Assembly: GCA_019914995.1 (NCBI GenBank)
Contig: CM034134.1
Location: 3,490,145-3,554,144 of the forward strand
Length of the DNA stretch: 64,000 nt
Direction: 5' to 3'
From: Acanthochlamys bracteata
Lineage: Eukaryota; Streptophyta; Magnoliopsida; Pandanales; Velloziaceae
The position numbers were made by a program, and so were the translations under genes. Numbering within the stretch: the first letter of the stretch is position 1; each line of letters begins with the position of its first letter. Below, in pieces: positions 1,021-56,088 of this stretch. Under the pieces are notes generated by a model. The model saw only the letters and a program-made list of their open reading frames with translations. It was not told the origin of the DNA and did not search any database.

Positions 1021-1470
1021 TTATGCATGCAAACTAAAGGACTTAAGCCCTTGACATCAGCAATGGACCATCCTAATGCAGCCTTATAATCTCTCAAAAC
1101 TCGAAACAACTTTTCCAGCTCCAAGTCACTCAAAGAAGCCGAAATAATAACAGGAAGTGATGAATTTTCTCGTAGGTATGCATACCTTAGATGTGCAGGC
1201 AACGGCTTAAGCTCAAGTACTGGAGTTATTTCAATGGATGGAGCTGTCCTAAGAGACCTTTCCCCAAGGTCCTCAAACTTCAGCCGTCTTCCAATAGGCG
1301 GTGAAGCTTGCAAGTAATGAGCATACGACTCAATCTCTTTGCTTTCGGTCTTAGAAGATTCACCTTGGATAATACAAGCTGCTAAAGGGTCAATTAGATG
1401 GTCTACCTTGACTGCATCAGCCACCACTCGGTCAACTATATCAATTCGCAAACAATCGTCACTGTTTGGA
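1021..1470 (-). mobile_element. Element A: start of reverse transcriptase
   Basis: The minus-strand translation contains ELKPLPAHLRYAYL followed by AALGWSIADVKGLSPLVCMH. This is the conserved entry into the reverse transcriptase of Athila/Tat Ty3 elements (usual form KAIGWTIADIKGISP.CMHKI). The reading ends at the LTR of element B, so the catalytic part is not in the window. It lies directly downstream of the protease region in the element's direction. Confidence 0.85.
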
Positions 1471-1950
1471 TGGACACTTTGTAGCTCCAAATATATTTAA
1501 CGTGACTTGCTCATCTTGTACTCGCAAAATTAGCTTCCCTTGCTGCACATCAATCAATGTTCTTCTAGTGGCTAAGAATGGTCGACCAAGAATAATTGGT
1601 ATGCCTTTATCTTCTTCCATATCTAGTACAAAAAAATCAGCAAAGAATATGAATTTATCCACTTTCACTAGCACACCCTCAAGTGTTTCTCTTGGATGCT
1701 TAATAGATCGATCCGCTAGTTGAAGAGAAACTGTGGTTGCCTTTACTTCTCCTAATCCTAATTTTCTGTAAATAGAAAATGGCATTAAATTAATGCTTGC
1801 ACCTAAATCACATAAAGCTTTTTCAAAATAAGAGTTTTCAATAGTGCAAGGTATAGTAAAACTCTCTGGATCTTTTAACTTTGGTGGCAACTTATTTTGC
1901 AAGATAGCACTACACTCCTTGGTTAGCGTCACCGTTTCATAGTCTTCCAA
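1471..1950 (-). mobile_element. Element A: aspartic protease region
   Basis: The minus-strand translation contains ALCDLGASINLMPFSIYRKL, then GIPIILGRPFLATRR. These are the two hallmark blocks of the retropepsin-like domain of Athila/Tat elements: the active-site DLGAS motif and the ILGRPFL flap-side motif. It lies between gag and reverse transcriptase as expected of a Ty3 pol. Confidence 0.9.
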
Positions 1951-2099
1951 TTTTCGTTTGTTGACAAAATCTCTTTCATGAACTTTACATAGTTTGGTAT
2001 TTGCTCCAATTCATCTGCAAAAGGAATGTTAATATGGAACTTTTTAAACATATCAAGAAATTTAGAGTATTGCTTATCCAATTTGGTCTTTTGAAGGCG

Positions 2100-2956
2100 T
2101 TAATGAAATGGAATAGGTGGCGCATAAAACTTGGTTGGTATTGCTGTTTGGGGCTGGTTAATGTCCGAGCTTTCTTCTTTAGTTGATTCGGTGGCATTCT
2201 CCACTGTTTGCTTGTTGTTCTGTTCTATTCCAGAAGGTGATTTAGATGAAAACATATCGGGATGCTCTCTTAACTCATAGATGTTAACTATTGGCGTTTT
2301 GAGAACCTTCCCACTTCGAAGTGCAATTGCATTCACTTGCTCCTTAGGATTTACCTTAGGGTTGCTTGGCAAAGAGCCTTGTGGTCTTCCAGATAACAAG
2401 CTTGCTAGTTGACCCATTTGAAACTCAAGCTTTCGGATAGAGGAAGCTTGATTTTGCAAAGTTGATTCTGTTTTGGCCATGAATTGGTCAAGGGCATCTT
2501 CAAGTGGTGTTTTAGTTACTGGTTGCTGCTGAAATCAAGGGGGGTTTCTATTTGTGCTTTGATGATTTTTTAATGAAAAATTTGGATGATCTCGCCAACC
2601 TGGATTGTATGTGTTGGAGTATGATTGTTCGGTTGCCGGTTGACATTCGACACCCATTGCACTTGTTCTGCAGCAGATGGTGAGAATGGGCTTCCAACTT
2701 GACAATCAACACTAGCATGACTTCTCCCACATAGTTCACAAACTTGACTAGGCGCTTGAATTGTTTTACCCGTTAAGCTTCCGAGCTGTTTGGACAGCAC
2801 CTTTATTTGTGCAGTCAATTCCACAACACCATCAACTTGGTGTACTCCTGCTGCCCATTTTGTCATCGAACATTCTGAAGGCCATTGGTCGTTATTGGCT
2901 GCCATTTCCTCCAGCAACTCATAGGCTTCGTCTTGTGTTTTACTCCAGCGCTCCAC
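2100..2956 (-). mobile_element. Element A: gag C-terminal part and linker
   Basis: Two minus-strand segments belong to the Athila gag tail. The first (about 2570-2956) has DEAYELLEEMAANNDQWPSE and a Cys/His cluster resembling a degenerate zinc knuckle (CELCGRSHASVDC). The second (about 2100-2480) has ASSIRKLEFQMGQLASLLSG and EQVNAIALRSGK, the linker before the protease. The part is broken at a few points. Confidence 0.85.
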
Positions 2957-3650
2957 CTACTGCGACATCATTAATTGTCCTAGTCGTGCAACTTAACCCA
3001 TTATAGAATGTTTGGACTTGTAGCCACTTTGGCAAACCATGGTGAGGGCACTTCCTTAGCAGGTCCTTATACCTTTCCCACGACTCATACAAAGACTCCA
3101 TATCAAATTGAGTAAAGGTAGTGATTTCGTTCCTCATCTTCGCCGTCTTTGCAGTAGGGAAGAATTTGGCTAAGAATTTCTGTGCTAATGCCTCCCAAGT
3201 TGTAATGGTGTTTGGAGGAAGTGAATTCATCCATTCTTTTGCCTTGTCCCTTAATGAAAATGGGAAGAGTCTCAACCTTATAGCATCATCGGACACACCA
3301 TTATGCGTGAAAGTGTCACAAATCTCAAGAAAGTCAACAATGTGAGTGTTTGGGTCATCGTTTGGCGAGCAATTGAATTGGATGAAAGTTTGGATCATTT
3401 GGATGATTGCGGGCTTGATCTCGAAGTTGTTCGCTTGAATTACCGGACGTCTAATACTTGACGGGGCACCATTGGTAGTAGGCATGGGATAATCCCTCAA
3501 AGCTCTTCCGTTTTCAACTTCTTCCACATTTTCTGCTATGGTAGTTTGCACTTCGTTGAGAGCTTCTTTGTTTTTCTTGATAAGCCTCCTAATTGTACGT
3601 TCAATTTCAGGATCAAAGGGCTCAAGAGAAGTGCTTCTCAAACTTCGCAT
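2940..3650 (-). mobile_element. Element A: gag capsid domain (Retrotrans_gag)
   Basis: A 236-codon minus-strand stretch encodes the N-terminal and capsid part of Athila gag. It includes ALRDYPMPTTNGAPSSIRRP near residue 53, NPHTHI-like NDDPNTHIVDFLEICDTF near residue 100, LFPFSLRDKAKEWMNSLPP near 128 and ESLYESWERYKDLLRKCPHH near 180. These blocks define the PF03732-type gag domain. It begins about 100 bp inside the primer site at 3747-3766, the usual leader length for a gag start. Confidence 0.92.
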
Positions 3651-3746
3651 ACACTATGCAAGGAACCTGAAAGAAGGTAAACAAATAAAAGTTCAAACTA
3701 AAACTAGTATTAATCAAAATCGATATTAATAACAATTAAAACAATC

Positions 3747-3768: not shown

Positions 3769-5436
3769 TGTTGCCTTCGCAAGTGTACGAGTCGCACAAG
3801 TAATACAATTATGAGAAAAGTATCGTTTCCACGAGGATTGATTATCTTACTAAGTACCGAAAATAAGTAATTCCAGAATTATTTGAACAATTGATCTAAA
3901 AGAGTTAATGCTAAAACTAAAGAAAGCAAAACAAGCTAAAACTAATACTCGTAAGATTTCAATGACTTAGGCGCTAGGGCATTTGATTTCATCATAACTA
4001 ATCCAGTTCAACTCTGTATTCGTGCTATCGAAGTTTATAATCTTTATTGACAGTTGGAAAACCCTAATTTCTTTGATATACTTTCTCAAACTATACCAAA
4101 AATACTTTCATGCAATAACTCACTATATCTCTATGTGAATTAACATACAACAAAGCTCATTAAGTTTTATGGCATCCTAGATTAACTGCATTAACCATAA
4201 GAGGATCAATTAACTTATTAAGTACCGAAAATTCTAGAATTATTTGAACGATCGATCTAAAAAGAGTGAATGCTAGAACTAAAGAAAGTAAAACAAGCTA
4301 AACCTAACACTCGTAAGATTTCAATGATTTAAACGCTAGGGCATTTGATTTCATCGTAACTAATCCAATTCAACTTCGTATTCATGCTATTGAAGTTTAT
4401 AATCTTTATTGACAGTTGAAAAACTCTAATTTCTTTGATATACTTTCTCAAGCTATACCAGAAATACTTTCATGCAATAACTCACTATATCTCTATGTGA
4501 ATTAACATACAACAAAGCTCATTAAGTTTTATGGCATCCTAGATTCACTGCATTAACCATAAGAGTGCATCTCTGTCTCTCACGCAATTCATGGAATTCA
4601 TCACAAAGATTAATTCATACATCACATCTCTATCTCAATACGAATATCAAATCGATTGAATATTGGCCAGATACTCAAAAGCATTAAGAACGGTAATGAA
4701 TACTCAATAAGCAATTATAAAACTTCGAATATCATAGATAAATAATTAGGCTACATCATAGCCCCAGCAAGGAATTTAGTTCATAGTTTTCAGATCTAAC
4801 AAAACAAAGAGAAACATGAGAGATAGAAGAAAAGAACATTGAACAAAGAGTGGTGGCGAGCGAACTGCTGTCTCCTTTCTTTGCTCTGCCCTTCCGTCCG
4901 TCTTTCTCCCCGGTTCAGCGGCAAATACCCCAAAAAATAAACCCTAGATGAGCCCCTCTTCTTTCTCTCACCTCTTGCCCCCCTTGGAAATCCAAAAATT
5001 GGGTATTTAAATCCATAGGGTTTTTCTTTCCATAATTAGATTGGTGCAGTACAAGCTAATCCGAACTCTCTGTCTACCCATTTGTCTGCACCATTTTGAA
5101 ATTATTTGGCCTCCAAAAATAAATTAAAATATTTAAAATTAAGATCAATTTCTTATATTTCCAACCTTATATATCAAATATTATTTAAAAATCGCGAAGG
5201 CCGTTAGGTGCACTCGTTTTAGAAATTGCGCACATGATTCAAGTCTGCATTGTATCTCAAATTCTTCTGTGAATATATATCAAATGGTTTCCCAGAAAAT
5301 TCTGAAATAATTCATGGGACAACTTGAATGTGTTGGCTTTGAGACCCAGTTGGTCATTCACAAAATCTCCACATAAAAGTCAAATTTTCATAAAAGCTCT
5401 CAGACTGCACGGAATTGCTAAAAATTAAGAAGAACA
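3769..5436 (-). repeat. 5' LTR of element A (Athila), about 1.67 kb
   Basis: On the plus strand the LTR starts TGTTGCCTTC next to the primer site. The outer end is less certain: AGAACA at about 5436 gives matching TGTT/AACA termini, with CTGCA at 5409 as an alternative. A length of about 1.65 kb suits Athila LTRs. It contains an internal tandem duplication (3833-4565). The other LTR is not in the window, so no age can be given. Confidence 0.75.
3833..4565. repeat. Tandem duplication of 368 bp inside the Athila LTR
   Basis: Two adjacent copies (3833-4200 and 4201-4565) share long near-identical stretches, for example TAAGTACCGAAAAT, ACTCGTAAGATTTCAATGA and TTATGGCATCCTAGATT. Both end in GCATTAACCATAAGAG. 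Scattered single-base differences show the duplication is not recent. Confidence 0.93.
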
Positions 5437-20465: not shown

Positions 20466-23400
20466 ATGGATAAGAGTTGGATACATAATCCTGATAAGTT
20501 GTCGGAGGAGTATACAAATGGAGTCCGCTCCTTTATGCAATTTGCTAAAGATCATTTGCAGAATGTTAGCGAGATGTATTGTCCATGTGCGACGTTGTTT
20601 GAATAAATATTCAAACATGCTCGATGTGGTATACATGCATTTACTTGTGAATGGTTTTATGGCGTCTTACACGAGATGGAACTTACATGGATAAGTCACT
20701 CATCAAGGTAATCAAAGTCTTGGTGTTCGTAGAGATGAGACTCCAATGAGACATGTTGAAGACGAAGAATATGATGAAATGTTTGAAATTTTGGAGGATA
20801 TACGTAGGGGTGGTGTTGTGGATTTAGAGATCCCTCAAGTAGCTACGGAGGGCGACAGACGTCAACCCGTTGTTAGTGAAGGGTCTTCAGTTGCAGCAGA
20901 TGATATTAATAGATATGACAAATTGCTTGAAGATGTCGAGAAGCCATCGTACGAGGGATGTACGATTTCAAAATTATCATTCTTCATAAAATTGCTGCAT
21001 GTTAAGGTGCTTAATCGTTGGAGCAACAAAGCTTTTAGTATGCTGCTTGATCTTTTGAATGATGCATTTCTGAAAGGGCATTTACTTCCTTCGTCTTACT
21101 ATCAATGTGGAAAGATTCTGAAGGATTTAGGTTTGGGATAGGAACCTATTGCTGCATGCGAGAATGATTGTGTTCTTTTTAGAAAGGAGTTGGTAAACGA
21201 GGAGAAGTGCCCAGAATGCAATTCATCAAAGCGGAAGGTTAATGATTGCACCGGTAAGAAGGTTTCCAGGAAAGTGCTTCGTCATTTTCCATTAGTACCT
21301 AGACTGCGACGATTTTACATGTCAAGAAAGATAGCCTTGGATATGAGATGGCATAAGGAGAAACGTGTAGATAACCCTGAGATTTTGAGACATCCTGCAG
21401 ATGCTGAGGCTTGGAAGGATTTGATGTGAAGTTTCCATGGTTTGCTAGTGATGCTCGAAACTTACGACTTGGCCTGGCGACTGATGGATTCAATCCTTTT
21501 GGAGATATGAGCAATGCATATAGCTGCTGGCCTGTTATTTTAATGCCGTACAATTTACCTCCATGGATGTGCATGAAAGAGCCATACTTTATTATAACAC
21601 TTTTAATTCTTGGAAAACAATCACCTGGTAGAGACATTGATGTATATCTTCAGCCACTAATTGAAGAGTTGAAGGAGCTGCGGGATAACGGAGTTTCAAC
21701 ATATGACGCCGTCTCCAATACGATATTTCAATTGCATGCAGCTGTTCTATGGACCGTAAATGATTTTCCTGCATATGGAGTTTTATCCGGGTGGAGCACA
21801 AAAGGCTACTTGGCATGTCTCATATGCAACGAATATACATCTTCTGTCAAACTTAGAGACAAAATTGGTTATCTCGGCCACCGTCGCTATTTGCCGAGCA
21901 ACCATCCATATAGGAGTAAAAAATTCAATGGAAAGCAAGAAGTAGCACTACCACCTCCTAAATTGTCAATTGATGAATTGTTAGAACAGATGGATATTGT
22001 TAAAGACGTGAAGTTTGGAAAGCCTACATGTGGTAAGAAGAGGAAGCGCACATTCGAGGAGCTTAATTGGACCAAAAAAAGTATTTTTTTGTAACTACCA
22101 TATTGGAAGGATCTCATAATTCGTCACAACTTGATGTCATGCATATCGGAAAAAATATTTGTGATAATATCTTGGGAACTTTGATGAATATAGATAAGAA
22201 GACGAAGGATACTCTGAAGGCTCGTTGGGACCTAGAAGATCTAGATATACGACGCGAGAATGCATACAAAGAAATTGGATACCAATAAGTGGGAGAAACC
22301 AATTGTGGCGTACACACTATCATCTCAGGAAAGAAGGAAATTTTGTGAATTTCTTAAGTCTGTAAGATTCCTTATGGATATGCTGCATCTATTTCGAGAT
22401 GTGTAAATATGGTGGATGGGAGAATCTCGGAGTTGAAGAGTCATGATAATCATGTGATGTTGCAGCACTTACTGCCTATTGGTTTACGTGGGTATCTCAA
22501 AAAAAAAAAGTGTTAGAAGTAATCAGTGAACTTGAAAGATTTTTCAGAGAATTATGTGCAAAGACTTTAAAATTGGATGGATTGAGAGAGTTACAGCATA
22601 ACATTGTGGTTATTCTTTGCAAGCTTGAGATTATATTTCCTCCGGCATTTTTTGATATCATGACACATTTAGTTGTGCACTTGCGGGATGAAGCTATCAA
22701 AGGAGGTCCTGTTCATTATAAATGGATGTATCCTATAGAGAGGTGAATTTTATTATGGGAATCTCAAATTTCTCATTTAATTTTCTATTGGAATCATATA
22801 AAAATGTTTATTTCATCTATATTTGTAGGACTGTTGGTACACTTGAAGCGTCTGTTCCTTATAGAGCACGTCCAGAAGGCTCTATAGCAGAATCTTACAC
22901 AACAAATGAGTGTCTTATTTTTTACTCTAGATATTTGCGAGGGTTGGAGACTAGATTTAATCGACAAGAACGACATAAAGATGGAGAGAAACAGGTGGAT
23001 ACAACATTATCTGTATTTTCTCAAAAGGTTCGACCCTTAGGTAAGGCAAACCAAATTCTCCTCACAGAAGAGGAATATAATTTAACACATTGGTTTGTCT
23101 TAAATTACTGTAATGAAGTCGTTCCATATCTCAAGTAAGTATTTACAATTTAAAAATGTTCTCTATTTTTTTAGCCTTTGTCATTAACACCTTATAAGAT
23201 TGCAAGTGACTTACTAAGGAATATTTACAGTGAGCATAAGGAGCTTCTCAAAGTTGAGAGTCCACTTAACTTAGAAACAAGGGAAAGAGATGGATTTCCT
23301 ACGTGGTTTAAAAATCGAGTATGAAATACTATATCAATATATACATATATATTGAATTTGAGATTTTAATTATGGCCAATATTTTTTTTAAATACTTATT

Positions 23401-24152
23401 TCTTATATATTTTTATTAAAAATGAGACGTACTGATGTCAGTACGCAAGAGAACTCGGATGATCTATATTCACTAGCCCTTGGTCCAGATAAACATGCCA
23501 TTAGGTATTCTGGATGCATTGTCAATGGAGTGAAATTTCTCACATACAAACGCTAACGTCGTTTGTTGACTCAAAATAGTGGAATTTGTGTGCAAGGAGA
23601 TCATAAAGATCAAATTTTAAATTTCGTATGGTTTTCTGAGTGATGTCTTGATTTTGACATATCCTAGGGGCCATCAAGTCTTTCTATTCAAATGTGAATG
23701 GTTTGACTTAGATCATAGAAAACCCATCAGGATTGATGATGACTTTACTAGCATCAACTTTACAAAAAAATGGTACCAAAATGATCCATTCATGTTTCCT
23801 ATGAATGTGACTCAAGTATTTTATGTTCCTGATACAAAGCAAGGTAATGATTGGGTTATTGTACAACAATCGCAACATCGATATTTATTTCATCCCTCGT
23901 TGTTTGGAGAGTGCTGCGATGACGGAGACACAAATATTGGTGATGATATGATAATCGCAGAGAATAATGCTTATCAAGAAGTGGAAAGTTCAAACGTAAG
24001 AGTCTCAAATAGATCATCTAAATTAGATAGTTGAACTTGATCATGAAGTGATTGATGTTTTGGACGAGCAAGAAGGCATTTAGACTAGTGATGGTGAAAA
24101 TGGAAATAAAAGCTCGGACGAGTACAGCCGTAGTGATGATGATTACAATTGA
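20466..24152 (+). pseudogene. TNP2-type CACTA transposase gene, decayed
   Basis: The encoded protein would cut and move CACTA elements. The start MDKSWI at 20466 is the canonical N-terminus of plant TNP2 proteins (MDKSWM...EY.NGV). The DDE-type core (Transposase_21) spans about 21190-22290: FPWFASDARNLRLGLATDGF, then AYGVLSGWSTKGYLACLICN and LDVMHIGKNICDNILGTLMN. The DUF4218 region follows (about 22430-22830, LLPIGLRGYL and HYKWMYPIER), then DUF4216 (about 23640-23870, DDFTSINFTKKWYQNDPF). An intron with GT-AG ends is visible at 22743-22828, and others follow 23135 and 23320. It is dead: a stop lies near 20597, the frame shifts near 20695, 21420 and in the A/T run near 22080, and a stop lies at 21139. 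The reading ends with an acidic tail at 24152. A second gene, Transposase_24, starts 119 bp further on. Confidence 0.9.
22743..22828 (+). other. Intron in the CACTA 1 TNP2 pseudogene
   Basis: The 86-bp segment has GT and AG ends. Removing it joins WMYPIE to RTVGTLEASV, matching the continuous family reading through this point. Confidence 0.75.
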
Positions 24153-24270
24153 ATTAATCTCATGTGAGTTTTAACTCAATCTTGTATAATTATTTTAATC
24201 TATTTCACTTTTAATTCTAGATTTCATTTTTTAAACTTTGTATACAGGTGTTTTTTATTAATTTATCTTT

Positions 24271-25847
24271 ATGGCGCCGGTAACCTCTAGTAGAAGACGA
24301 CTACCGCTACAAGCAAGCCAGAATATCGCTGATTTGGAGACTCAAGATCCTAATACCTCTAGCAGTGGTAAGCTTATTTTTTTTTAATTAAATTATTATA
24401 TACTAATTAGTGAACGTAATAGTTGTCCTCTAATTAAGTAGGGTCTGTTGATACACAAACACAATGTCCACGTGCGGGCAACAGATGTAGTGATTTAGAA
24501 ATGTATATGTTGAGAAATAAGAACAAAGTCAAGGTCGAAATTCCCGATGGCATATGGAGACAAGTCGGTGAACATGCTGTTTGGTTTGCAAGAGAGATAG
24601 CATATTTGATTCATACCAATGCTCCTGTAAAGAATATTAAAGGTTGGAGTAAGATTGACAAATCTATTAAGAACGAGATTTATTCCATGATGACTGTAAG
24701 TATGTTATTATTGGTTTGATATACATTATTAAGGGTTAGAATTTGTTAACAAGTTCTTTTATTATCACAGGATAAGTTTGAGCTAGATTTGTCCCATCTT
24801 GGAACCTTGGCATATTTACATAATACAAGATCCGAGAGATACAAGGATTGGCGTTATGAGTGCCATGACTACTATAAGAGTGTCGGTGGTGGAGACAGAG
24901 CTCGAGCAAACCCTTATAAGGACTTTACTTCTACAGTAGCTTGCCGTGAAGAATGGATCTGGCTATGCGACATGTTTGATTCGTCATAATGAGTTGTAAG
25001 ATTTCTTTGATCGATTATTCTTCTTTGAATCTTTTTTATCTAGAGGCTGAAAAATATCCTTATCATTGGTTATATGCAGAAAAAATCAGAAAAAACAAAA
25101 GCTGCTCAAGCAAAGAATAACAGTAAGCATACAGCAAGCTCACGCACTTTCGCATCTATACAACGGGAGAAGGTATTTTTTTTATGGTTTTGGGTTTAAT
25201 ATAACAAAGACGATAGGACTCTAATTAATAGCAAATTGATTCTCTTAATAAATTTGCAGAATGCCAATTATATTGACTTGTATAAGGAGACACATATTTC
25301 AAATGCAAAAGAAAAGAATGGCAGCTGGGTATCGGAGGAATCACAATCAAATTATGTAAGTTATGACCTTTCTATTCAATTTTTAGGCAAGTAACCATAA
25401 GAGTTAAGGTTTATAATTTACTAAGATATTTTGTTTTGAATGAAATGCAGAATCAAATGGTAGAAATGCAAATCAAGTCCTAAGAGGATGGGAACGACGT
25501 CGATGACGAAAACATATGTCTATCGGTGCTTAGGAAGGCACATGGATATATTCGTGGTCGTGGACATGGACCTAAGCCGCCTAGCACCCGTTTTGCTGGT
25601 TCATCAATCCAGTCATATGAGAATTAGATTTTGAAAGATCAGATCGTAACCCTAGAGGAAAAAAATAAAGACAACAAGCTAAACTTGAGAAGCAACAATC
25701 TGAGTTTGAGAAACAACAGTCTGAGCTTAAGAAGCAACAAAATGAATTGCAAGAGACTAGACAACGTCTTCGTGAAATGAAGAAAAGCTATCATTTCTAA
25801 TGGAGATGTTCGGAAAGCTCAAAAATGCTACTGGACCACCTATATAG
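24271..25847 (+). pseudogene. Transposase_24 (PF03004, TnpA-like) gene of CACTA 1
   Basis: This is the second gene typical of plant CACTA elements; its product is thought to bind the subterminal repeats. The start codon at 24271 gives MAPVTSSRRRLPLQASQNIA. Exons follow with good GT-AG ends: 24271-24367, 24442-24695 (IWRQVGEHAVWFAREIAYLI) and from 24771 (RYKDWRYECHDYYKSVGG, EEWIWLCDMFDSS). Later exons lie near 25080-25170, 25259-25356 and 25451-25847, ending in a Gln/Lys/Leu-rich coiled-coil tail (a run of KQQ.EL units). In-frame stops near 24987, in the last exon near 25481 and at 25624 suggest loss of function. The same gene, with the same start (MTPATSNRRRL), is found in the second CACTA copy at 54102-55506. 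Confidence 0.82.
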
Positions 25848-28085
25848 TAAGTTCATTATTTTTTCTTACTTTATTTCAGCTATATTAGTGTTCCCCTTTT
25901 TCGAGTTTATTATGATAGGAGGAGATAAAAATCTTACTTTCTGCAGCTGCTTTACTATATTAGGTTTTCTGCTTAGATTTGTAGAAGCATGAACATTCAT
26001 AGGTCATATGTTTTCTATAACTTCCGTGTTTGGTTTTAAACTCTTTGGTGGACATGTGTTGGCTCATATTAATTAATTGATTTGCTAGCTAATAAGCATG
26101 ATTTAGGAGAAGGGTCGATTAACTAAAAAAAGGTATTATTTCTTTAACGAATTAACTATAATAGGGTTTGTCATGGCATGCATGGTTAGCGAGTGAGAAA
26201 TTTAAGACTTCCATTAGAGTTGGAAGTTGGGGAAACAGAAGCTTGCAGTGTCTGGCATAAGGATGGCAAAATTTGTTTAATCTTTCAAATATAAACCCTT
26301 ATTAGGTGTACTTCATTTCTTCTATGATCATGTGTCTTTTTCTCAAAAGATTAAACAAATGTTGATATTCCCTACAGAATCTTTTTTTTTTTTTTTGCTT
26401 TTCATACTTGGTTTTTCAACCTATGCTGCAGCAAATTCCTACAATCTCATTTGTTAATGAGGTAAGATCAATGTGCATCAAATGGGTCCAGCATTTTGTG
26501 CTAGCCAATGTATGTGAGTCGGTTCTCTTCAGTGGATCTGTAGGATAAGGTACATATGTTTGAAAATACAATCCATTTGTAGCACCTCTATCCAAAAAAT
26601 GGAACCTTATAAAATTGGTATGATGTAGACAGTTCAACATCTCTCGATTTAGGAGCATAGTTCAATCGCAGTGAACTAAGACATAATGTGTTGGTTCAAG
26701 TTAGATATCTTATGTGCTGCATGAGTTTAATCTTAGTACGTTTATTTTTTTGCATGGAGCAAGTAATTTGCCAGATGATACTAGTCTTCTTCTAGTCTTT
26801 GGGTTTGCAGCATGCATATATGTAGGTATGTCCCTATTGCACAATGCACTTTTGCTCCAATAAAAGAAATTTGTAAGAAAGGCTTGATATAGTTAACTGC
26901 AAATGTGTTTATTAGGGGCATCTGTGAATTCCATTACTAATCAAGAAATAGCATGTTGGTTTTAAATAGATAGTCTATGCATGGCAATCTGCCTAATCTT
27001 CTATTTGAACCTTTGTTTTGTTGCTGGGTGTACTCTGTAATAGATAGTCTATGTATCACAATCTGCCTAATCTTGTATTTGAACTTTCGTTTGTTGCTGG
27101 GTGTACGCTGTAATGTTATACCACCTTAAGGTAAGGTTGTGTAAGTCATGGAATTCATTTAGTAGAATGTCCCTCCGCCTTCTATATTTTTTTTAAGTCA
27201 TTATGGGCAAATTTTAGAGGTGCTGCTATATACTACAACAATTTTTTTTGTTGCTTAATGACATATATATTAAAGGAATATGGTAAAGCACATGGAAGGG
27301 CAAATGCTATGTTCTGTGCTTTAGAGATAATTATGGATAACTACAGAAAATATGGAATGGTTGTTTCATGCACATTGAGTGTTTTTTATGTTGCTTCTAA
27401 TGATCATGCATTATGTGTTATTCTAATTTTTAGTAGCCTTTAACTTTATTCTGTTGAAGTTAGATATTTTCTGAGCTTCTAGGGTTGCGTTTCCAGCATT
27501 CTAAAAAAGTTTTTGTAATTTTATAACTTTTCATAATTTTATAACTTTTATAATTATTATTTTGGATTTTTTATGTAGATTCCTATGCATGTTGCTATCA
27601 ACATTCCACTTGAACTCAAAAGCTTCTCAAAGATAATAGCCTTCTCGATGTGTATGTAAACTCCTCTACGTTTTTTTTATAGAATTTGTTTATATGACAC
27701 ATGCTACTTCTACTATTCCTAGAGACTGCCTGTTAGGATTTTGTTCTTTTCTAGAGAAGGATTGCTCCATATGGCATAATAAAATATTTTTTTGCTTCAC
27801 TGGTTGTAAGAGTGCTTTTCAGATAGCAGCGGTGTTTCGTTGCAAGTAAATTATTGTTTTTCTTTACTCATCGTATTTGAATGTATGAGATGATATATGT
27901 ATGGATGCATTTCAAAACTGAATTGTAATTGGTTTATTTGCAATTTTCAATGAAAATAAGTACTTACTTTTCTCGAAATTATTTGTGTTGAATGTTGTGG
28001 TATTTAGATTATTTGTGTTTAATTGAATGATGTGAACGAAAATATTGTTGATATATAAATTATTAAAAATAGCAGCGATTTTGAA
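25848..28085. other. Right non-coding interior of CACTA 1
   Basis: About 2.2 kb between the Transposase_24 gene and the right subterminal repeats. I see no recognisable coding. It contains a two-copy 74-bp tandem repeat at 26966-27113. It may hold 3' untranslated sequence. Confidence 0.5.
26966..27113. repeat. Two-copy tandem repeat, 74-bp unit
   Basis: Two adjacent units share ATAGATAGTCTATG, AATCTGCCTAATCTT and TTGCTGGGTGTAC with a few substitutions. Confidence 0.88.
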
Positions 28086-28624: not shown

Positions 28625-30208
28625 GTGCATATACAATGTCCTATAATTTATGCTCGAAAATTACATGCAAATAATAGATGTATAGTACTACACGGATTTG
28701 ATGCTGCCATGCATCGTGTTGCAAGAGTTCAACGTTCCCTATATGCATGCTCCACAAATTAATTATGCATTACATGGCAATAATGCAATTTATTTCTATC
28801 ATGCTCTTGCATGTCACTCAAAACAAGTATACTATCTAAGCATGCTATATAGACCATTTAGTAGTAACAACACATAATTGACATCAAGATTCTTATACAC
28901 GTAATTCCATTTTGATTGCTAATATGCTTGGCCCAAGGTATGTAGTGACACTTAGCATAATTCATCATTGGTATAAACTTATAATGTCTGTTGAGTATAT
29001 ATACACTAGCCATCTGAAGAGCCCACTGCTAATGCCATGTACCTACTATGCAATATATATAAAAGCATTTTATATATATCAAGTCTTGGCATTTCATAGG
29101 TTTAAGCCTATATAGTATGCGAAAAGGAGGAATCTCATCAACCATTTCGCTTACTCAATTTCTAGCGTGCTATGACATTATCTATCATATGATCCTATGC
29201 AAGCTTTTACATCATGAGTTACAAGTAAAGGGTTCTGAAGGTATAGTCATTCATGCTATAAGATTAGATGAGATGCTAGCCTGTTCAAAGCATGCAAATT
29301 AGAGATCTGTCTCAAAGTTATCACTTACATGTCATTATAATTTCTTAACGTGATTTATATACAAGCATGCATCATACGAGCATTACATAGCATGAGAGAA
29401 ATCCAATCATACTATATAGAAGTGGTAAGGTATGCCAAAGTTCTAAGCCAGATGTTACCGGTGCCAAAAACCTAATGATAATCTAGGAATGGAAGTTGCA
29501 AGGTAATCTCACCTGAAAGTCCATGCGAAAATAAAAAATCTACGACTATCAATGAGTTTTGGTCCTGCATTAAGCAAGGTAACCCTCACCAATAAACACC
29601 TAGGATGAAACAGTTATTCAAAGCCTCAGGAAAAGTTTAACCGACATAAGTGTATTACAACTCATATTGGCCGCAGGTCTTGCTTGCTCGCTCGATGCCA
29701 ACGAAAATAGGGTTCCAACGGCAAAGTAGTAAATGACAATAGAAGGACTAGCAAACACAGCAGAGTTTAATACGACAACGACTAAGCTAAAACCATCTTT
29801 AGACTAGAATCGGCCATTCTGTGATAGCTCGATATTGTCAGGCATACACGAGCCCGAACAGGAATCCCTACACAATTCATCGATTGCCGCACTTGGCATT
29901 GATGAATTGTAGGCTAAAGCTTTGACCGAAATCTAGGTTTACATGGACAACTTGCCATCGCCAAAATTGGTTCACCGAGATGCGCCGGCTAGAAGGAGGA
30001 GGATGATATGGCTAAAGAAGGAAGAGATAATGAGGGAAGGGTGATCACTGGCCACTGGAGAAGAAGATTACACAAGTGGGAGCACGGCTAGGGCTCAGGA
30101 AGGAAAAGTATAAGAAGGGAAAAAGATAAGGAAAAGAAGGACAGAGGATTATATGAAAAGAAATTGAGAAGTGCCAAAAATACCCTTACACTAAATTGGG
30201 GTGTTACA

Positions 30209-30213
30209 GTACT
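30209..30213. repeat. Right 5-bp target duplication of the solo LTR (GTACT)
   Basis: GTACT directly follows GGTGTTACA, matching the left copy 15.5 kb away. The pair shows that the LTR and the CACTA inside it are one nested unit. Confidence 0.85.
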
Positions 30214-30232: not shown

Positions 30233-30562
30233 TGTTAGGGTACGTAATTTAGAAGTAGCAGGAGTTTGAGTTACTTTAGGAGACCAGTCAATAAGAGTTT
30301 GTGTTTCGTTAGAAAACTAAGTTGTTTGTATTCATTAGGAAACCAAGTAGTTGAGTAGGTGTCGTATGTTAAGAGGGTTTTGCTAGTTTAGGAACTCTAC
30401 CAACATGGTAAGAGCTAAGCTATAAATAAAGGTGTGTGGCATCTCATGTAAAGAGGAAAAAAGAAGAATTGAATTAGTTATTTATTTTAGTTTTATCTTT
30501 GAATTTTTAGATTATTTAGAATTAGAATATTTTTGCGGTTCGTGTTATCACGAATCGTAACA
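30233..30562 (+). repeat. 5' LTR of the gene-capturing element
   Basis: It begins TGTTAGGGTACG and ends CGAATCGTAACA. A TATA box is clear (GCTATAAATAAAGG, near 30419-30432). It is the same length as the 3' LTR and about 97% identical by eye. Confidence 0.95.
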
Positions 30563-30563
30563 A

Positions 30564-30575
30564 TTGGTATCAGAG
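30564..30575 (+). promoter_or_regulatory. Primer binding site of the gene-capturing element
   Basis: TTGGTATCAGAG directly follows the LTR end CGTAACA. It matches the initiator-tRNA-Met primer site. Confidence 0.88.
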
Positions 30576-30597
30576 TAGTCGATCTGCAACCTCGCTA

Positions 30598-33486
30598 TTG
30601 CTGCTAGCTACAATGTCCTCATTGCATCAACAACAATTGCAGCAGTCACAATATTATCAACAACAGGAGTTTTATCCGCAGCCGTATTATGGCGATGAAT
30701 TCTACCAGCAACATAATCAGCCATATGAATTGTACTCACAGCAGTATTCTCATAATTTTTATCAGCAATATTATTGGCAACAAGAGTCATATTCACAACG
30801 GTATCATGAAAATCCTTATGAGCAACCCAATCAACAACATCAAATTCACCATCAGTGTTCACAAATTTATTATGACCAACAATATCAAATCCAACCACAG
30901 CAGACTCATGCAATGCCTATACCTCAACGCACGAGTGATGCGCTAGAGCGGCTAAGCATACTACTAGCCGAGCTAAAGGAGTTTTCTGCCGGACTTCAGA
31001 AATTTAAGAATAAGCCGTACCAAATAGAACAAGTTCAGCAACAACAGCCTCCTATTTCACATGATCCAATTCATGTTTCTTTGGATCCTCCCCAAGCCAC
31101 AGCTGCCACCGGAATTAAATCGCTTCATACGGATTCCTCACAAAATCTTTTTCCCACTCAAATCACTCCTACCACGAATGCCGCCGCAATCTCTGAGGGA
31201 TTTTCAACGAAACAACAGGAGGAGAAAGGATCTCACAGGATTTCTCTGACGAACTCCGAGTTTCCGCGCCGGGGACTGATCTCCACTCCGGTGATCTCAT
31301 CGAGCTCCACCTTGCATGACGATCTCGATCTCTTATGTCCGAACATGCTACTTGTTGCTAGCAAAAGCTCGAATTTTCTTCTTGCGTGCAATGAAGAATT
31401 TTTGCTATCGGATGCGAAGACCCTCAATAGGCGAAGATTTGACCCGCGATACTGTGCACCTCCGTTCTCTTCAATCCCAATTGATCCTGGAGGCCAGTTC
31501 GCTGTGTTGAGTCAGGTGATGAACATGAAGGAGGACGTGTCGATATTTAAGAACCCTGCTGAAAGAAATCCTTCGCCACCGACTTCTATTCTTTTACCGG
31601 TAACGTTCAGGAGGGTAAACGAAGTGGCAAACTCCTTGTCACGAGGCCTTCCGTGGCAGTCTGGAGGAATACTGAAGTCAGGCAGTACAGGTTCAGAAGA
31701 TCAAATTCTGGCAGTACGAACTCGAAAAATAAGCTCATCTCATGCACCTCAGGGCAGGAAGCCTTTAGCGTTCAAGTTGTCTTCCTGTACCTATGTGGCT
31801 TGCCTACATATAGCTGACATCACAGCAAGCGTCAAACCACGTAACCCACCGTGGAGTTTCACCGCATTCCCACTAGCTAAAGACACATATGTGCCAGAGA
31901 AGTTGCAAGTAGAGAATTTGAAGAGCACTCTGAAAATCAATCCAAACAAGTCTGTCATAAGATTCAAGGACAATTCAAGTGCAATCAAGGGCTTTAGAGT
32001 GAATGTCTTACAGCCAGGGCCACTTAGTTCAGCGTCTCCATTGTTTCAGAGACCTTGTGAGGTAGATTTGTTGATTACTTCTTTGTTGAAGATGAAGCCA
32101 ACTGAGAGGGTAAAGTTCTTGCTGGCATTGAATAAGGGAAGCTATCTCTGCTGGATAAGCTTCGACTCTCAACAATGTAACATATCTTCATCCCCTAAAT
32201 ATTGGTCAGGTATGCATTTCTGCACTTCTAGACTAAGCTCAACATCAATTATAATTATTTTTGGCGACAGCAGCCCCTATGAGCTCATTAGTGAATGTTC
32301 TTTCGGGTCGGAGGGTTACTACTTGACAATTCCAGTGACTGATAGTGCTTTGTGGGCATTGCTTGCCTATATTCTTGATGTCTTACTAATGAGTTGGGGC
32401 TGCCTGAATGATCATGCTACTACTCCAATGTATCTCAAGGTTAGGTATGATAGTGGTGCAGAAGTCTCCTCACAATTGGAGAAAGTGGAGTATTACCATG
32501 ATAAGATCCTTTCCGCACCAATCTCTGTGTTCAAGGGAGCTAACATAGTCGATAAGTATAGTGACCTTGATTGTTACAGAGGTTCTACTCTCCTTGAAGC
32601 TTTTGACCACATCTTGGTGCTTAAGAGACCTCCAGACAAGCTTTTCTGTCTCTCAGTGCAGGAAGTCTATGGCGGCAGCAGAAGTGGTAGTGCAACTGGT
32701 TTTACATTAGGCCTTTGGAGGTTTAGTAAAAATGCACCACTAGAAGAACTACCGACTCTCCCTATTCAGGTAGAATACCCTCAACTGCTGATCGGTCGAA
32801 AGTTCGTGGATTCAGCAACAGATAGGGTATTCCTTCCTTTAGACCATATAATTGGTGAAGCTGAACTCATTAGACCTGCTGATAGTAGCAACAAAGTGCA
32901 CCTAAGAGTTGAAGGTCTTCTTTCTCAAGAGGGTGGTTTCCTTATACAATCAACTTTGGAAGCAGTCATTGGGGTGAATCATGCAGAAATAGACCAAGCA
33001 GATCACAAAAACATTGTTGAATTTGATCCTGAGTTCACTGGTCTAATGTTTCTCATTCAGCATATACCACGGAAAGTTATCACCAAACCAAATGATGCAT
33101 TAGGTATAGCTTTGGAGAAAGCTTCCATGAGTAGAGCTCTTATCATCGGTGTTTTAAACAGAGCATATGTTTATAAGAAGGGCATGTCAAGTCTCTTCCT
33201 AAGAAGTGTACGAGAAGAAGATGGCATCCAGTTTCTCATCAAATGCCTCCTCCTTGCGGCCATTGATCAGGGAGCCTTCAACAGTTGCGAGATGCTAGGA
33301 CTCCATAGTTATCAACTCGTCACTGAAGGGATTGATGTCTCTATAAAAATTATATTCATGACTGAGGACTTTATCAAAATGATGTCAAGGAGAACTATCT
33401 TCCTTGGAAAAGTCTTGACGAAAGGTTATGGTTTTATCTTCACAGATATGGATGTGATGTGGGTAAGGAATCCATTTACCAAGTAG
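30598..33486 (+). CDS. 962-codon chimeric ORF: Q/Y-rich leader plus captured EF1A, ALDH2B and sugar-transferase pieces
   Basis: One uninterrupted reading starts 36 bases after the primer site; a second start (MSSLHQQQLQQ, residue 6) is equally likely. Residues 7-104 are extremely rich in Gln and Tyr, and 110-150 form a short Leu/Lys helix. Residues about 613-691 match elongation factor EF1A (VSSQLEKVEYYHDK, GSTLLEAFDHI). Residues about 700-756 match the N-terminal part of mitochondrial aldehyde dehydrogenase (PIQVEYPQLLI, KFVDSAT). Residues about 836-962 match the PF03407 nucleotide-diphospho-sugar transferase family (ALEKASMSRALIIGVLNRAY, GYGFIFTDMDVMWVRNPF). Residues about 230-612 and 757-835 I cannot place; they may be further captured pieces read in a non-native frame. 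Whether a protein is made is unknown. None of the captured pieces keeps a whole domain. Confidence 0.85.
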   Translation: MLLATMSSLHQQQLQQSQYYQQQEFYPQPYYGDEFYQQHNQPYELYSQQYSHNFYQQYYWQQESYSQRYHENPYEQPNQQHQIHHQCSQIYYDQQYQIQPQQTHAMPIPQRTSDALERLSILLAELKEFSAGLQKFKNKPYQIEQVQQQQPPISHDPIHVSLDPPQATAATGIKSLHTDSSQNLFPTQITPTTNAAAISEGFSTKQQEEKGSHRISLTNSEFPRRGLISTPVISSSSTLHDDLDLLCPNMLLVASKSSNFLLACNEEFLLSDAKTLNRRRFDPRYCAPPFSSIPIDPGGQFAVLSQVMNMKEDVSIFKNPAERNPSPPTSILLPVTFRRVNEVANSLSRGLPWQSGGILKSGSTGSEDQILAVRTRKISSSHAPQGRKPLAFKLSSCTYVACLHIADITASVKPRNPPWSFTAFPLAKDTYVPEKLQVENLKSTLKINPNKSVIRFKDNSSAIKGFRVNVLQPGPLSSASPLFQRPCEVDLLITSLLKMKPTERVKFLLALNKGSYLCWISFDSQQCNISSSPKYWSGMHFCTSRLSSTSIIIIFGDSSPYELISECSFGSEGYYLTIPVTDSALWALLAYILDVLLMSWGCLNDHATTPMYLKVRYDSGAEVSSQLEKVEYYHDKILSAPISVFKGANIVDKYSDLDCYRGSTLLEAFDHILVLKRPPDKLFCLSVQEVYGGSRSGSATGFTLGLWRFSKNAPLEELPTLPIQVEYPQLLIGRKFVDSATDRVFLPLDHIIGEAELIRPADSSNKVHLRVEGLLSQEGGFLIQSTLEAVIGVNHAEIDQADHKNIVEFDPEFTGLMFLIQHIPRKVITKPNDALGIALEKASMSRALIIGVLNRAYVYKKGMSSLFLRSVREEDGIQFLIKCLLLAAIDQGAFNSCEMLGLHSYQLVTEGIDVSIKIIFMTEDFIKMMSRRTIFLGKVLTKGYGFIFTDMDVMWVRNPFTK
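32434..32670 (+). pseudogene. Captured fragment of translation elongation factor EF1A
   Basis: About 79 residues align with EF1A domain 1/2: YDSGAEVSSQLEKVEYYHDK corresponds to [21 protein letters not shown], and APISVFKGANIV to VPISGFEGDNMI. DLDCYRGSTLLEAFDHI corresponds to NLDWYKGPTLLEALDQI, and KRPPDKLFCLSVQEVY to KRPSDKPLRLPLQDVY. EF1A carries aminoacyl-tRNA to the ribosome. This piece lacks the GTP-binding loop motifs, so it cannot act as EF1A. No intron is visible, as expected for capture from mRNA. Confidence 0.87.
32695..32865 (+). pseudogene. Captured fragment of mitochondrial aldehyde dehydrogenase (ALDH2B type)
   Basis: About 57 residues match the start of mature plant ALDH2B. LWRFSKNAPLEELPTLPIQV corresponds to a typical RRFST.AA.EE...PPVQV leader, and EYPQLLIGRKFVDSATDRVF to YTQLLINGQFVDAASGKTF. 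LDHIIGEAE then stands where LDPRTGEVI is expected. The catalytic Cys/Glu part of the enzyme is absent. It follows the EF1A piece after about eight residues, so two unrelated genes are joined in one reading frame. Confidence 0.77.
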
Positions 33487-33880
33487 AGTTGTGAGGATGA
33501 ATTCCTCCAGATTAATTGTGATCAATTCAACGGAGAATCAGGGGATACCTCCAACCCAGTCAACATTGGCTTGTATATTAGGTTTTCAGATAGTGGAACA
33601 ATTGAACTTCCTGAAGAATGGTATCAAGCAAGCAACAACTCTCCTATCTTGAAAGATCAAGTTGTTCTGCATATCAGGAAATCAGGAAGATGAACAGAGA
33701 CTTCAAACTGGGAACGAGAGTTCGGTTCTTAGACACTCCTTACTTCAGTGGCTTCTGTACAGGTAGCAAGGATTTTCGAGAAAAGTCGAATAGCCCTATG
33801 GATGCTAGGTGGACTGAACATAAGGCATGTGCTCAATCCTGGTTAGAAGACATCAAATGGGTGGCAAAATTGGGGCCGCT
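33103..33880 (+). pseudogene. Captured fragment of a nucleotide-diphospho-sugar transferase (PF03407)
   Basis: The last 127 residues of the ORF match the At4g15970-like family of putative Golgi glycosyltransferases. LEKASMSRALIIGVLNRAYV, LIKCLLLAAIDQGAFNSC and YQLVTEGIDVS are followed by FMTEDFIKMMSRRTIFLGKV and FIFTDMDVMWVRNPF. The last contains the DxD-type metal-binding motif (TDMDVMW; family TDADIMW). Homology to the same family goes on toward the 3' LTR in broken form (RFLDTPYFSGFC, EHKACAQSWLEDIKW). This is the longest captured piece and covers roughly two thirds of the family domain. Confidence 0.9.
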
Positions 33881-33987
33881 GATCTTACTTCTGTTGGTTA
33901 GTGTGATGACATTGGCGTTAGATTTCGGGAAGCAACTATTTATGTTGTCAACCTTGGGGACAAGGTTGATTTTCAGGGAGGATGGAA

Positions 33988-34317
33988 TGTTACGGTACGT
34001 AATTTAGAAGTAGTAGGAGTTTGAGTTACTTTAGGAGACCAGTCAATAAGAGTTTGTGTTTCGTTAGAAAACTAAGTTGTTTGTATTCATTAGGAAACCA
34101 AGTAGTTGAGTAGGTGTCGTATGTTAAGAGAGTTTTGCTAGTTTAGGAACTCTACCAACATGGTAAGAGCTAAGCTATAAATAAAGGTGCATAGCATCTC
34201 ATGTAAGGAGGAAAAAAGAAGAATTGAATTAGTTATTTATTTTAGTTTTATCTTTGAATTCTTAGATTATTTAGAATTAGAATATTTTCGCGGTTCGTGT
34301 TATCACGAATCGTAACA
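33988..34317 (+). repeat. 3' LTR of the gene-capturing element
   Basis: It starts TGTTACGGTACG after a purine-rich tract (CAGGGAGGATGGAA) and ends CGAATCGTAACA. It has the same length as the 5' LTR; about nine differences are seen, most of them transitions. Confidence 0.95.
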
Positions 34318-53199: not shown

Positions 53200-54101
53200 C
53201 AACACTAGTCTACTGGTTCTATTTCTATTAGCATATACATAACAAAAAATATGTATATTCACATTACTCAACACTACTATCCATTCACCAACAAAAAATA
53301 TGGATAGTGTATACACAACTCTACTAACCATTCACCACGAACGTTCAACACACAAACAGATGAAAAGAAAACTTTAAATTTTCATATTCCTCAAATGCTT
53401 AAACCAAACTCAATTTGGTTATGTGGTTGCATCCATACATCATCTCATACATTAATTGGAAATGAATAAAGAAAAGCTTGGTTTTTTTTACAACGAAGCA
53501 CCCTAGCTAGCTATCTAAAACACCATCCCTGCAACAAACAAAGCAAATAATTTTATTATAAGATAGAGCAAAAAATATATATGTTTTCAAAAATCCTAAA
53601 TTTAAATATGCATTAACAGAGCCAACTTCTCTATGGATTGGATTCATAATATATGTTGGTAGCAGCATATAGAAGACACATTAATAATATTACAGTATGG
53701 GCAACCAGAAGAGCATGAGTTCAAACAAAAGAGCATTACATTAATAACATTACAGTATGGGCAACCAGATGAGCATGATTTCAAACATTACATTAAAACA
53801 TTACATATATGCTGGATTCATAAATTCAAACAGAAGAGCATGAGTTCAGATGCATGGGCAAGCAACGACAGAGTTGTTGTACAACTTGGAAAACCAAAAA
53901 CACATTGGTGGTTTTTTTAATTTTGTTAAAGTATAACTACTTCAAAGCTATTGCTGAAAAGTAAATTTGTAAAATAAAACTAATAATGAAACATTAATCA
54001 GTCAACAAAAAAAATAATGAAAAAAACCAAGCAATAAATATATCTTTCTCTAGCTGAAATAAAGTAAAACTAATTTTTAAAAGAAGCACATAATGAAATT
54101 A
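53200..54101. other. Non-coding interior of CACTA 2
   Basis: About 900 bp between the subterminal array and the Transposase_24 stop codon. It holds the 60-bp tandem repeat and otherwise nothing recognisable. Confidence 0.5.
53680..53800. repeat. Two-copy tandem repeat, 60-bp unit
   Basis: ATTAATAATATTACAGTATG and GGGCAACCAGAAGAGCATGA recur 60 bp later as ATTAATAACATTACAGTATG and GGGCAACCAGATGAGCATGA. It lies in the non-coding part of CACTA 2. Confidence 0.88.
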
Positions 54102-55506
54102 CTATATAGATGGTCTAGTAGCATTCATGAGAAATGATACTTTTTCTTCATTTTCACGGAGGCGTCGTCTAGTCTGAAGGAGTTCATTTTGTTGCTTCTC
54201 AAGCTCAGCCTGTTGTCTTTCATTTTTTTTCCTCTAAAATTACAATCTGATCATTGAAAACTAAATTTTCGTATGCTTGGGTAGAGGAACCAGCAGAACG
54301 GATGTTAGACGGCTTAGGTCCACGCCTACGTCCACGAATATATCCGCGTGCTTTCCCAAGCACCGATAGGCATATCTATTCATCATCGATTGCGTTCCCT
54401 TCCTCTTTAGACTTGGTCTGCATCTCTACCATTTGATTCTGTATTTTATTTAAAACAAAATAACATAGCATATTGTAAACCTTAACTCTTAAGGTTAGTC
54501 GCAAAAAAATTGTATATAAAGGACATAACTTTCATAATTCGAATGCGACTCCTCCGATATCCAACTGCCCTTTTTATCTTTTGCATTTGAAATATGCGTC
54601 TCTTTATACAAATCAATAAATTGGCATTCAACAAATTGTAAAGAGAATCAATACAAGTTAATTAGTTAAAGTCCTATTGTCTTTGTTATATTAATGCAAT
54701 TACTTAGAAAACTATAACAAAATACCTTCTGTCATTGTATTGCCACAAAAGTGCAAGAGCCTGTTTTGTGCTTACTGTTATTCTTTACACGAGCAGCTTT
54801 TGCTTTTTTCGATTTTCTCTGCATATAACCAATGATAAGCATATTATCCATAGATTAAAAAAATGCAGCAAAACTTTAGATAAACGAATCTTACTCCATT
54901 CTAGCAAATCAAATTGATCGCATACCAAGATCCATTCTTCATGTCGGGCTGCTTTAAGATATTATGTAAACATGTTAAGATCCCAGGATCAGACAAATGT
55001 CACTCAAACTTGTCCTGCGATAATAAAAGAAAATTGTTAGCAACTGTCAAACCTTAATAAAGTAGATTATGCCAACTTTAAGATACTTACAACCATCATG
55101 GAATAAATCTCATTCTTTATAGATTGATCAATCTTACTCCAACCTTTAGTATTTTTACGGAAGCATTAGTACGAATCAGATATGCCATCTCCCTTGCGAA
55201 CCAACTTACGTGTTCACCGACTGGCCTCCATATGCCATTTGGGATATCAACCTTGACTTTATTCTTATTTCTCAATATATACATTTTCAAGTCACTGCAT
55301 CTATTGCCCGCTCGCGGACGTTGCGTTTGTGTGTCAACAGACCCTATTTAGAGGACAACTATAAGATGCAATAATTAGTAAATGGTGAAGTTTATTTATA
55401 AAAACTTACTGCTACTAGAGCCATCAGGATCCTAAGTCTCCAAATCAGAGATATTCTGGGTTGATTGTAGTGACAACCGTCTTCTATTAGATGTTGCCGG
55501 TGTCAT
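54102..55506 (-). pseudogene. Transposase_24 gene of CACTA 2
   Basis: The minus-strand start at 55506 reads MTPATSNRRRL, like MAPVTSSRRRL in CACTA 1. Exon-like pieces follow in the same order. About 55130-55350 reads SDLKMYILRNKNKVKVDIPN and VSWFAREMAYLI. The 'RHEEWILV' area (about 54920-54960) stands where CACTA 1 has REEWIWLC. A Lys/Ser-rich piece lies near 54770-54820. The last exon (about 54102-54430) reads GYIRGRRRGPKPSNIRSAGS and a Gln-rich coiled coil, ending ATRPSI at the stop (CACTA 1: ATGPPI). The middle part corresponding to the RYKDWRYE block is poorly preserved, so I treat it as a pseudogene. Confidence 0.75.
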
Positions 55507-55635
55507 AAAGATAAATAAAAAAAAAGCAGGACATTTATACAAAGTTCTATATATCCAAAAAAAAATTGAGAGTTAAAATTAAATAAAAAAAATAAATGTA
55601 TAAGGTTGAGTTTAATCTCACGTGTGACTTATAAT

Positions 55636-56088
55636 TCAATTGCAATCATCATCACTATAGTTACACTCTTCCGAGTTTTCGTTTTCATTTTGATCATCAT
55701 TAGGATGAATGCCTTCTTGGTTGTCCAAATCCTCAATCACTTCATGATTAAGTTCAACTACCTTATTTAGATGATCTATTTCTATACTATCATCTCCATT
55801 TCTTATGTTCGAACATTCCACTTCTTGATAGGCATCATTATCGATGATGATTGCTTTTTCATCAACATGTGTGTCTTCTTCATCTCCGCCCCCTCCAAAC
55901 AACGAGGGATGATATAAATATCGATGTTGTGATTGTTGTGCAACAATCCAATAGTTATCTTGCTTCGTATCTTGAAGATAAAACACTTGAGTCACAGTCA
56001 TAGAAAATACGAACGGATTATTTTGATACCATCTCTTGGTAAGGCCAACGGTGAGGAGACTGGTCGCTACATTAGGATACTTGGGCAC
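55636..56088 (-). pseudogene. 3' end of a TNP2 transposase gene (DUF4216 region), CACTA 2
   Basis: A 150-codon open stretch reads TKRWYQNNPFVFSMTVTQVF, then WIVAQQSQHRYLYHPSLFGG and an acidic tail ending EECNYSDDDCN. It lines up with CACTA 1 at 23757-24152 (TKKWYQNDPFMFPMNVTQVF, VQQSQHRYLFHPSLFG). Homology starts at TKRW; the residues before it do not match, so the gene is truncated there. It ends a normal distance before the Transposase_24 start. Confidence 0.85.

Follow-up and report, generated by a model that had tools for sequence, protein, structure and literature searches.

In a 64,000-nucleotide stretch of the Acanthochlamys bracteata genome (GenBank assembly GCA_019914995.1, contig CM034134.1, positions 3,490,145 to 3,554,144 of the forward strand; hereafter the window), we observed an element of 4,085 bp that is bounded by two long terminal repeats (LTRs) and carries a single very long open reading frame (ORF), in which pieces of several unrelated host genes are fused. 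The coordinates of its features are collected in Table 1.

Table 1. Features of the LTR element, in window coordinates.
Feature	Position	Strand	Remarks
5' LTR	30233..30562	+	starts TGTTA, finishes TAACA; TATAAAT at 30421
Primer binding site	30563..30575	+	AT spacer, then core TGGTATCAGAG
Chimeric ORF	30613..33486	+	957 codons; first ATG past the LTR; ends TAG (33484-33486)
Q/Y-rich ORF start	30613..31080	+	33 Q and 18 Y in first 105 residues
Open stretch	31081..31908	+	no source match in Pfam, NCBIfam and PDB searches
FGAM synthase (purine synthesis) piece	31909..32082	+	TIGR01735 model positions 236-293
Open stretch	32083..32352	+	no source match in Pfam, NCBIfam and PDB searches
EF1A piece	32353..32676	+	matches residues 133-253 of PDB chain 9b0s_CF
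Probable ALDH2B piece	32713..32859	+	spans the junction of transit peptide and mature protein
HMA domain, copper ATPase of HMA4/HMA5 type	32857..33066	+	PDB 8q75; metal-binding models
PF03407 nucleotide-diphospho-sugar transferase piece, within ORF	33244..33477	+	E 2.8e-18
PF03407 continuation past the TAG, same frame	33505..33672	+	E 2.9e-6
Probable PF03407 continuation, another frame	33696..33782	+	E 0.13, below cut-off; model positions 154-183 follow on
Purine-rich tract	33975..33987	+	adjoins 3' LTR start
3' LTR	33988..34317	+	starts TGTTA, finishes TAACA

The two LTRs are direct repeats of 330 bp each, and their alignment gave exactly 9 substitutions (8 transitions, 1 transversion) and zero gaps, where a first-pass annotation of this DNA had counted about nine differences. 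The ends of both repeats fit the TG...CA of LTR retrotransposons, and TATAAAT is common to both at LTR position 189. The primer site and purine tract that the same annotation had proposed were both located next to the LTRs: the core TGGTATCAGAG, at 30565-30575, lies two bases after the 5' LTR and is one which we take to be of the initiator-Met tRNA type. The 330-bp repeats were thus found to have the anatomy of retroelement LTRs. Just outside the 5' LTR, at 30202-30212, we also observed TGTTACAGTAC, which is similar to the 3' LTR start TGTTACGGTAC; the likeness could be a coincidence, or it could mark the border of another element.

The ORF begins 50 nt downstream of the LTR. Its length had been given as 962 codons, a figure that matches a count from a TTG at 30598; the long frame itself stood, with 957 codons when counted from the ATG at 30613. 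The stop-free run around it (30526-33486) spans 986 codons, and no other open run in any of the window's six frames exceeds 237. When 2000 first-order Markov sequences of the same length were generated as a control, the longest six-frame open run was 252, and the in-frame stops had a mean of 51 and a minimum of 27. Over the interior of the element (30563-33987; 1141 codons in each frame) stops number 69 and 83 in the other two forward frames and 66, 65 and 72 on the reverse strand, against 9 in the frame of the ORF, every one of them from 33484 onward. Within the ORF, neither gag nor pol was matched by profile searches with Pfam and NCBIfam, in agreement with the earlier description. There was also no gag or pol match among the searched pieces of the other frames, which were only part of all (besides the main run there are 56 stop-to-stop pieces, of which the NCBIfam search covered 10 and left aside 46), and none to protease, reverse transcriptase, RNase H or integrase in the ORF frame and that part of the other frames.

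Five segments of the ORF could be matched to unrelated proteins. All five are in sense orientation and share the reading frame of ATG 30613 (the search of the remaining frames was less complete), the matched parts are uninterrupted in frame, and together the pieces make up about 38% of the ORF. The sugar transferase match was the only one to pass a curated cut-off; a PDB search with this piece returned an antibody chain only (E 0.88). The EF1A piece was matched in the PDB at E 8.9e-7 and by TIGR00483 at E 2.6e-11, and is identical to an Arabidopsis EF1A reference at 54 of 105 residues. The FGAM synthase piece matched TIGR01735 at E 1.1e-6 when searched alone and at 4.6e-5 with the whole ORF as query; 33 of 55 residues are identical to a plant reference stretch, and the PDB gave E 0.96 and 1.5 only. 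Both of these profile matches lie far below the curated cut-offs, since the models describe whole proteins and their cut-offs are unreachable for a fragment. The HMA piece is closest to the copper-transporting ATPase HMA4 of PDB 8q75, presumably the rice HMA4 (E 1.4e-10), with a best E of 5.3e-7 against metal-binding profile models. Its AlphaFold2 model has a predicted local distance difference test (pLDDT) score of 60 and the order strand-strand-helix-strand-strand-helix. With this model Foldseek returned 768 PDB matches at E <=10 and none at E <=0.001, and among the best 50 of the 768, HMA domains took ranks 8 and 10 (E 0.23 and 0.25). Pfam gave no EF1A, HMA or ALDH match.

The fifth piece aligned to an Arabidopsis ALDH2B4 reference with a score of 81, above the best of 300 shuffles (70), and with 22 of 49 residues identical. 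It found zero profile or PDB support in the Pfam, NCBIfam and PDB searches, where the sole PDB match was a sulfatase (E 0.1). Of the three genes named in the first-pass annotation, EF1A and PF03407 are thus borne out by profile matches, and ALDH2B, matched by alignment to a reference sequence, is weak; the FGAM synthase and HMA pieces are additions to that list. The common frame that had been claimed for the pieces was also observed, as their starts all share the phase of ATG 30613. Separate segments match unrelated proteins and no one plant protein matched the whole ORF in these searches, in which no plant proteome was included. We conclude from these matches that the ORF joins, in one frame, fragments of no fewer than four unrelated nuclear genes and probably of five. 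As judged by the same alignments, the captured pieces are much diverged from known relatives, and the frame is nonetheless readable.

The sugar transferase homology had been placed within the ORF. A piece of it does lie there, but the homology is not confined to it: it extends beyond the TAG, first in the same frame and then probably in another, with the frame change placed between 33673 and 33695. The frame was therefore probably once longer, and this copy, interrupted there by a stop and probably also by a frame shift, looks damaged at its 3' end.

The remainder of the ORF gave no credible source. The start, rich in glutamine (Q) and tyrosine (Y), had no credible family match in Pfam and NCBIfam (best E 2.6), and the two open stretches had none in the PDB, Pfam and NCBIfam (ORF frame; other frames partly). 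An AlphaFold2 model of 31081-31860 has a pLDDT of 31, and in the same part GC is flat across the codon positions (0.485, 0.500 and 0.473). Cucumisin (E 0.75) and plasmoredoxin (E 0.64) as sources of the two open stretches, TarS_C2 (E 0.025) for a neighbouring piece and TIGR03963 (E 0.0049) for another frame of the Q/Y-rich part were all rejected as chance-like. A gag remnant in the Q/Y-rich start was likewise unsupported, since comparison with three frames of a gypsy gag region elsewhere in the window (1400-3700, minus strand) gave scores of 32, 32 and 42, below the shuffled maxima of 48, 45 and 51. We also observed a 40-bp match (82.5%, E about 1e-4) between 31322-31361, in the first open stretch, and 55792-55831, in a region of inverted blocks described below.

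We further estimated how many stops the matched pieces should have collected under neutral decay. Four pieces were pooled (279 codons, 145 identical residues), using reference sequences for EF1A, FGAM synthase and ALDH2B and the HMA4 PDB chain for HMA, on the assumption that the source proteins resembled these references. Across 12 settings, which varied transition bias and AT bias and comprised 1000 simulations each, a mean of 4.8 to 9.3 stops was expected and 0 were observed; stop-free simulations numbered only 0 to 8 of the 1000 at each setting. Frame-breaking indels were also absent from the matched parts, an absence that is biased because the pieces were found by in-frame matching. The replaced residues were compared with simulations that reject stops only, for EF1A, FGAM synthase and HMA (ALDH2B being left out). 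Simulations at least as conservative in mean mismatch score numbered 880, 401 and 641 of 1000, respectively, and those reaching the observed fraction of positive-score mismatches 806, 88 and 772. Since the pool has no stops and the replaced residues are not more conservative, these simulations suggest that the openness of the frame was kept, and not the function of the captured domains.

Together, these observations are best explained by a non-autonomous plant LTR retrotransposon, similar to maize Bs1, that repeatedly transduced host coding sequence, a reading to which we give a probability of about 0.77. A gene-transducing architecture like that of Bs1 had been proposed for this DNA, and it fits, with pieces of at least two unrelated genes lying between the LTRs and fused in one ORF. 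Another element would have provided, in trans, for the packaging and reverse transcription of its RNA, and host mRNAs would have entered the particles as well. Template switching, a described route inside the particle (PMC5408686), would have joined pieces of mRNA to the growing cDNA through several steps. Less certainly, selection over the copying cycles may have held the frame open, acting at the RNA level (translation, stability or packaging) or on a new protein; it would not have conserved the captured domains themselves. In the present copy the stop and the probable frame shift would since have cut off the 3' end of the frame.

Bs1 is described as an LTR retroelement in which transduced segments of three unrelated host genes form a chimeric gene, for which both transcription and translation are reported (PMC13317346). 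The likeness is that several unrelated host genes have been transduced in both. They differ in the genes, which here are FGAM synthase, EF1A, HMA, the sugar transferase and probably ALDH2B, and are set apart from those of Bs1 by the gene names in the available description, not by sequence. The soybean terminal-repeat retrotransposon in miniature (TRIM) GmaRetroS15 also carries fragments of three host genes, described as transcribed exon sequence only; soybean TRIMs with gene fragments measure 1,172-1,449 bp and have 5-bp duplications at their flanks (PMC4717578), whereas the present element has 4,085 bp, a 957-codon frame and no duplication found. In maize B73, too, LTR retrotransposons are described with host gene fragments (PMC2774510). 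TR-GAG elements are likewise non-autonomous, with two LTRs and a single ORF, and one was seen transposing in Arabidopsis (PMC8704663); their ORF is gag, whereas the present ORF gives no gag match. With four to five genes in one frame, the element exceeds every example compared within the open-access literature (Bs1 and GmaRetroS15 have three each), as far as their descriptions go, and no earlier report of the set FGAM synthase/EF1A/ALDH2B/HMA/PF03407 was found in the open-access literature on captured genes, on the mechanism, on Bs1 and on TR-GAG elements and packaging. The fusion of several host genes in one frame by LTR elements provides natural examples of retrotransposition shuffling exons. 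Few such multi-gene fusions are listed in the surveys of captured genes consulted. With probably five pieces, strongly diverged and stop-free within the ORF, the element is a good system in which to ask whether such frames persist for the sake of a protein, simply stay open, or are not maintained.

Several observations weigh against this reading or its selective step. In the 64-kb window the element matched only itself, its own LTRs and one 40-bp stretch, so that no second copy was found there. About 62% of the ORF is without an assigned source, and the final 87 nt of the sugar transferase homology reach E 0.13 only. At the LTR ends there is no target-site duplication, the 5-bp flanks being TAAAA and GTGTC. 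The selection argument is soft, as only the pool is significant: among single pieces, at one setting (400 simulations), EF1A was stop-free in 7%, HMA in 22% and FGAM synthase in 42%, none of them significant. EF1A is nearly invariant among plants and for this reason the safest piece for the decay test, and alone it falls short of significance. The references (Arabidopsis or plant sequences, and one HMA4 chain) may themselves lie at some distance from the true host sources. The positive-score fraction of FGAM synthase (88/1000) leans towards conservation. Searches elsewhere bear little on the question: the ORF had one pattern match among viral contigs, which was not confirmed and says little in a non-plant collection, and an LTR end had no copy among viral and GTDB contigs, the wrong collections for a plant element.

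Because it lacks a target-site duplication, the element is not a textbook insertion and was not classed as a simple, unrearranged one. A scan of the flanks with shifts of up to 15 bp found two common 5-mers, both off the LTR ends, where about one is expected by a rough estimate; one of these, CTATG, lies in the outer flanks at 13 bp from the 5' LTR and 4 bp from the 3' LTR, and was dismissed as a likely chance match. It is possible, if somewhat less than an even bet, that each LTR comes from a different copy of the same family and that unequal recombination brought the two together; the interior would then be real and the LTR divergence no date for the insertion. This is compatible with transduction by a Bs1-like element, and our confidence in it is counted apart. 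In its favour, besides the missing duplication, 3 of the 9 LTR differences fall within 4 bp (chance 0.015), a modest clustering that was spotted first and tested afterwards; a duplication would equally have been lost if one flank had been deleted or mutated. The LTR divergence (Kimura two-parameter distance, K2P, 0.028) gives a nominal age of 1.1 million years at 1.3e-8 and 2.0 million years at 7e-9 substitutions per site and year, and this age is soft, since the absent duplication and the clustered differences leave room for such recombination.

A non-autonomous LTR element may also have accumulated gene scraps passively, its frame being open because the scraps were coding, with no selection at all. 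The small LTR divergence, the flat codon-position GC, the 7% of neutral simulations in which EF1A alone stays stop-free, and the stop and probable frame shift already present in this copy are all in keeping with this. We consider it unlikely, since it needs five pieces landing in one frame, the sourceless stretches are open too, at most 8 of 1000 simulations left the four pooled pieces stop-free, and an EF1A that is otherwise nearly invariant in plants is here identical at just 54 of 105 residues. For rice, non-purifying selection is reported for the majority of genes captured by LTR elements (PMC3726574), which also speaks for passive accumulation; the available literature is divided on selection upon captured genes.

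That the LTR drives a fixed new host gene, as proposed for Bs1, is improbable. The long frame is retained and opened by the first ATG behind a TATA-bearing LTR, but this copy terminates inside the sugar transferase homology, and the mean scores of replaced residues carry no sign of constraint. It is very improbable that the gene pieces were carried by a DNA transposon, Pack-MULE-like or Helitron-like, that is nested in the LTR element. Nothing direct favours this, the CACTA-type transposase of the window lying elsewhere; the longest interior inverted repeat is 26 nt at 77% with none near the interior ends (Helitron ends were not searched for), the frame starts only 50 nt past the LTR, and the matched parts continue in frame uninterrupted.

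Within the Bs1-like reading, the lineage could be one that accretes host mRNA pieces in one frame and is selected for long openness whatever is encoded. Domains would drift while stops and frame shifts were purged, and the frame would be an RNA-level stability or packaging device, not a set of borrowed protein functions. We offer this as a speculation that is, on balance, rather unlikely to hold.

Other mobile sequences were also observed in the window. On the minus strand, 1462-3653 is a Ty3-gypsy-like remnant with a Retrotrans_gag match at 2943-3653 (E 4.1e-22) and a weak aspartyl protease match at 1462-2010 (E 0.001). A Transposase_21 (tnp2) match lies at 21408-22091 on the plus strand (E 2.6e-89), which we take to be a CACTA-type transposase. 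Flanking the LTR element, 23760-27903 and 53430-56042 share eight block pairs that are 71-84% complementary and inverted, and the two regions may be copies of a single mobile element. Finally, at 3898-4559 a 300-bp sequence is directly repeated with 94% similarity, the two starts being 362 bp apart.
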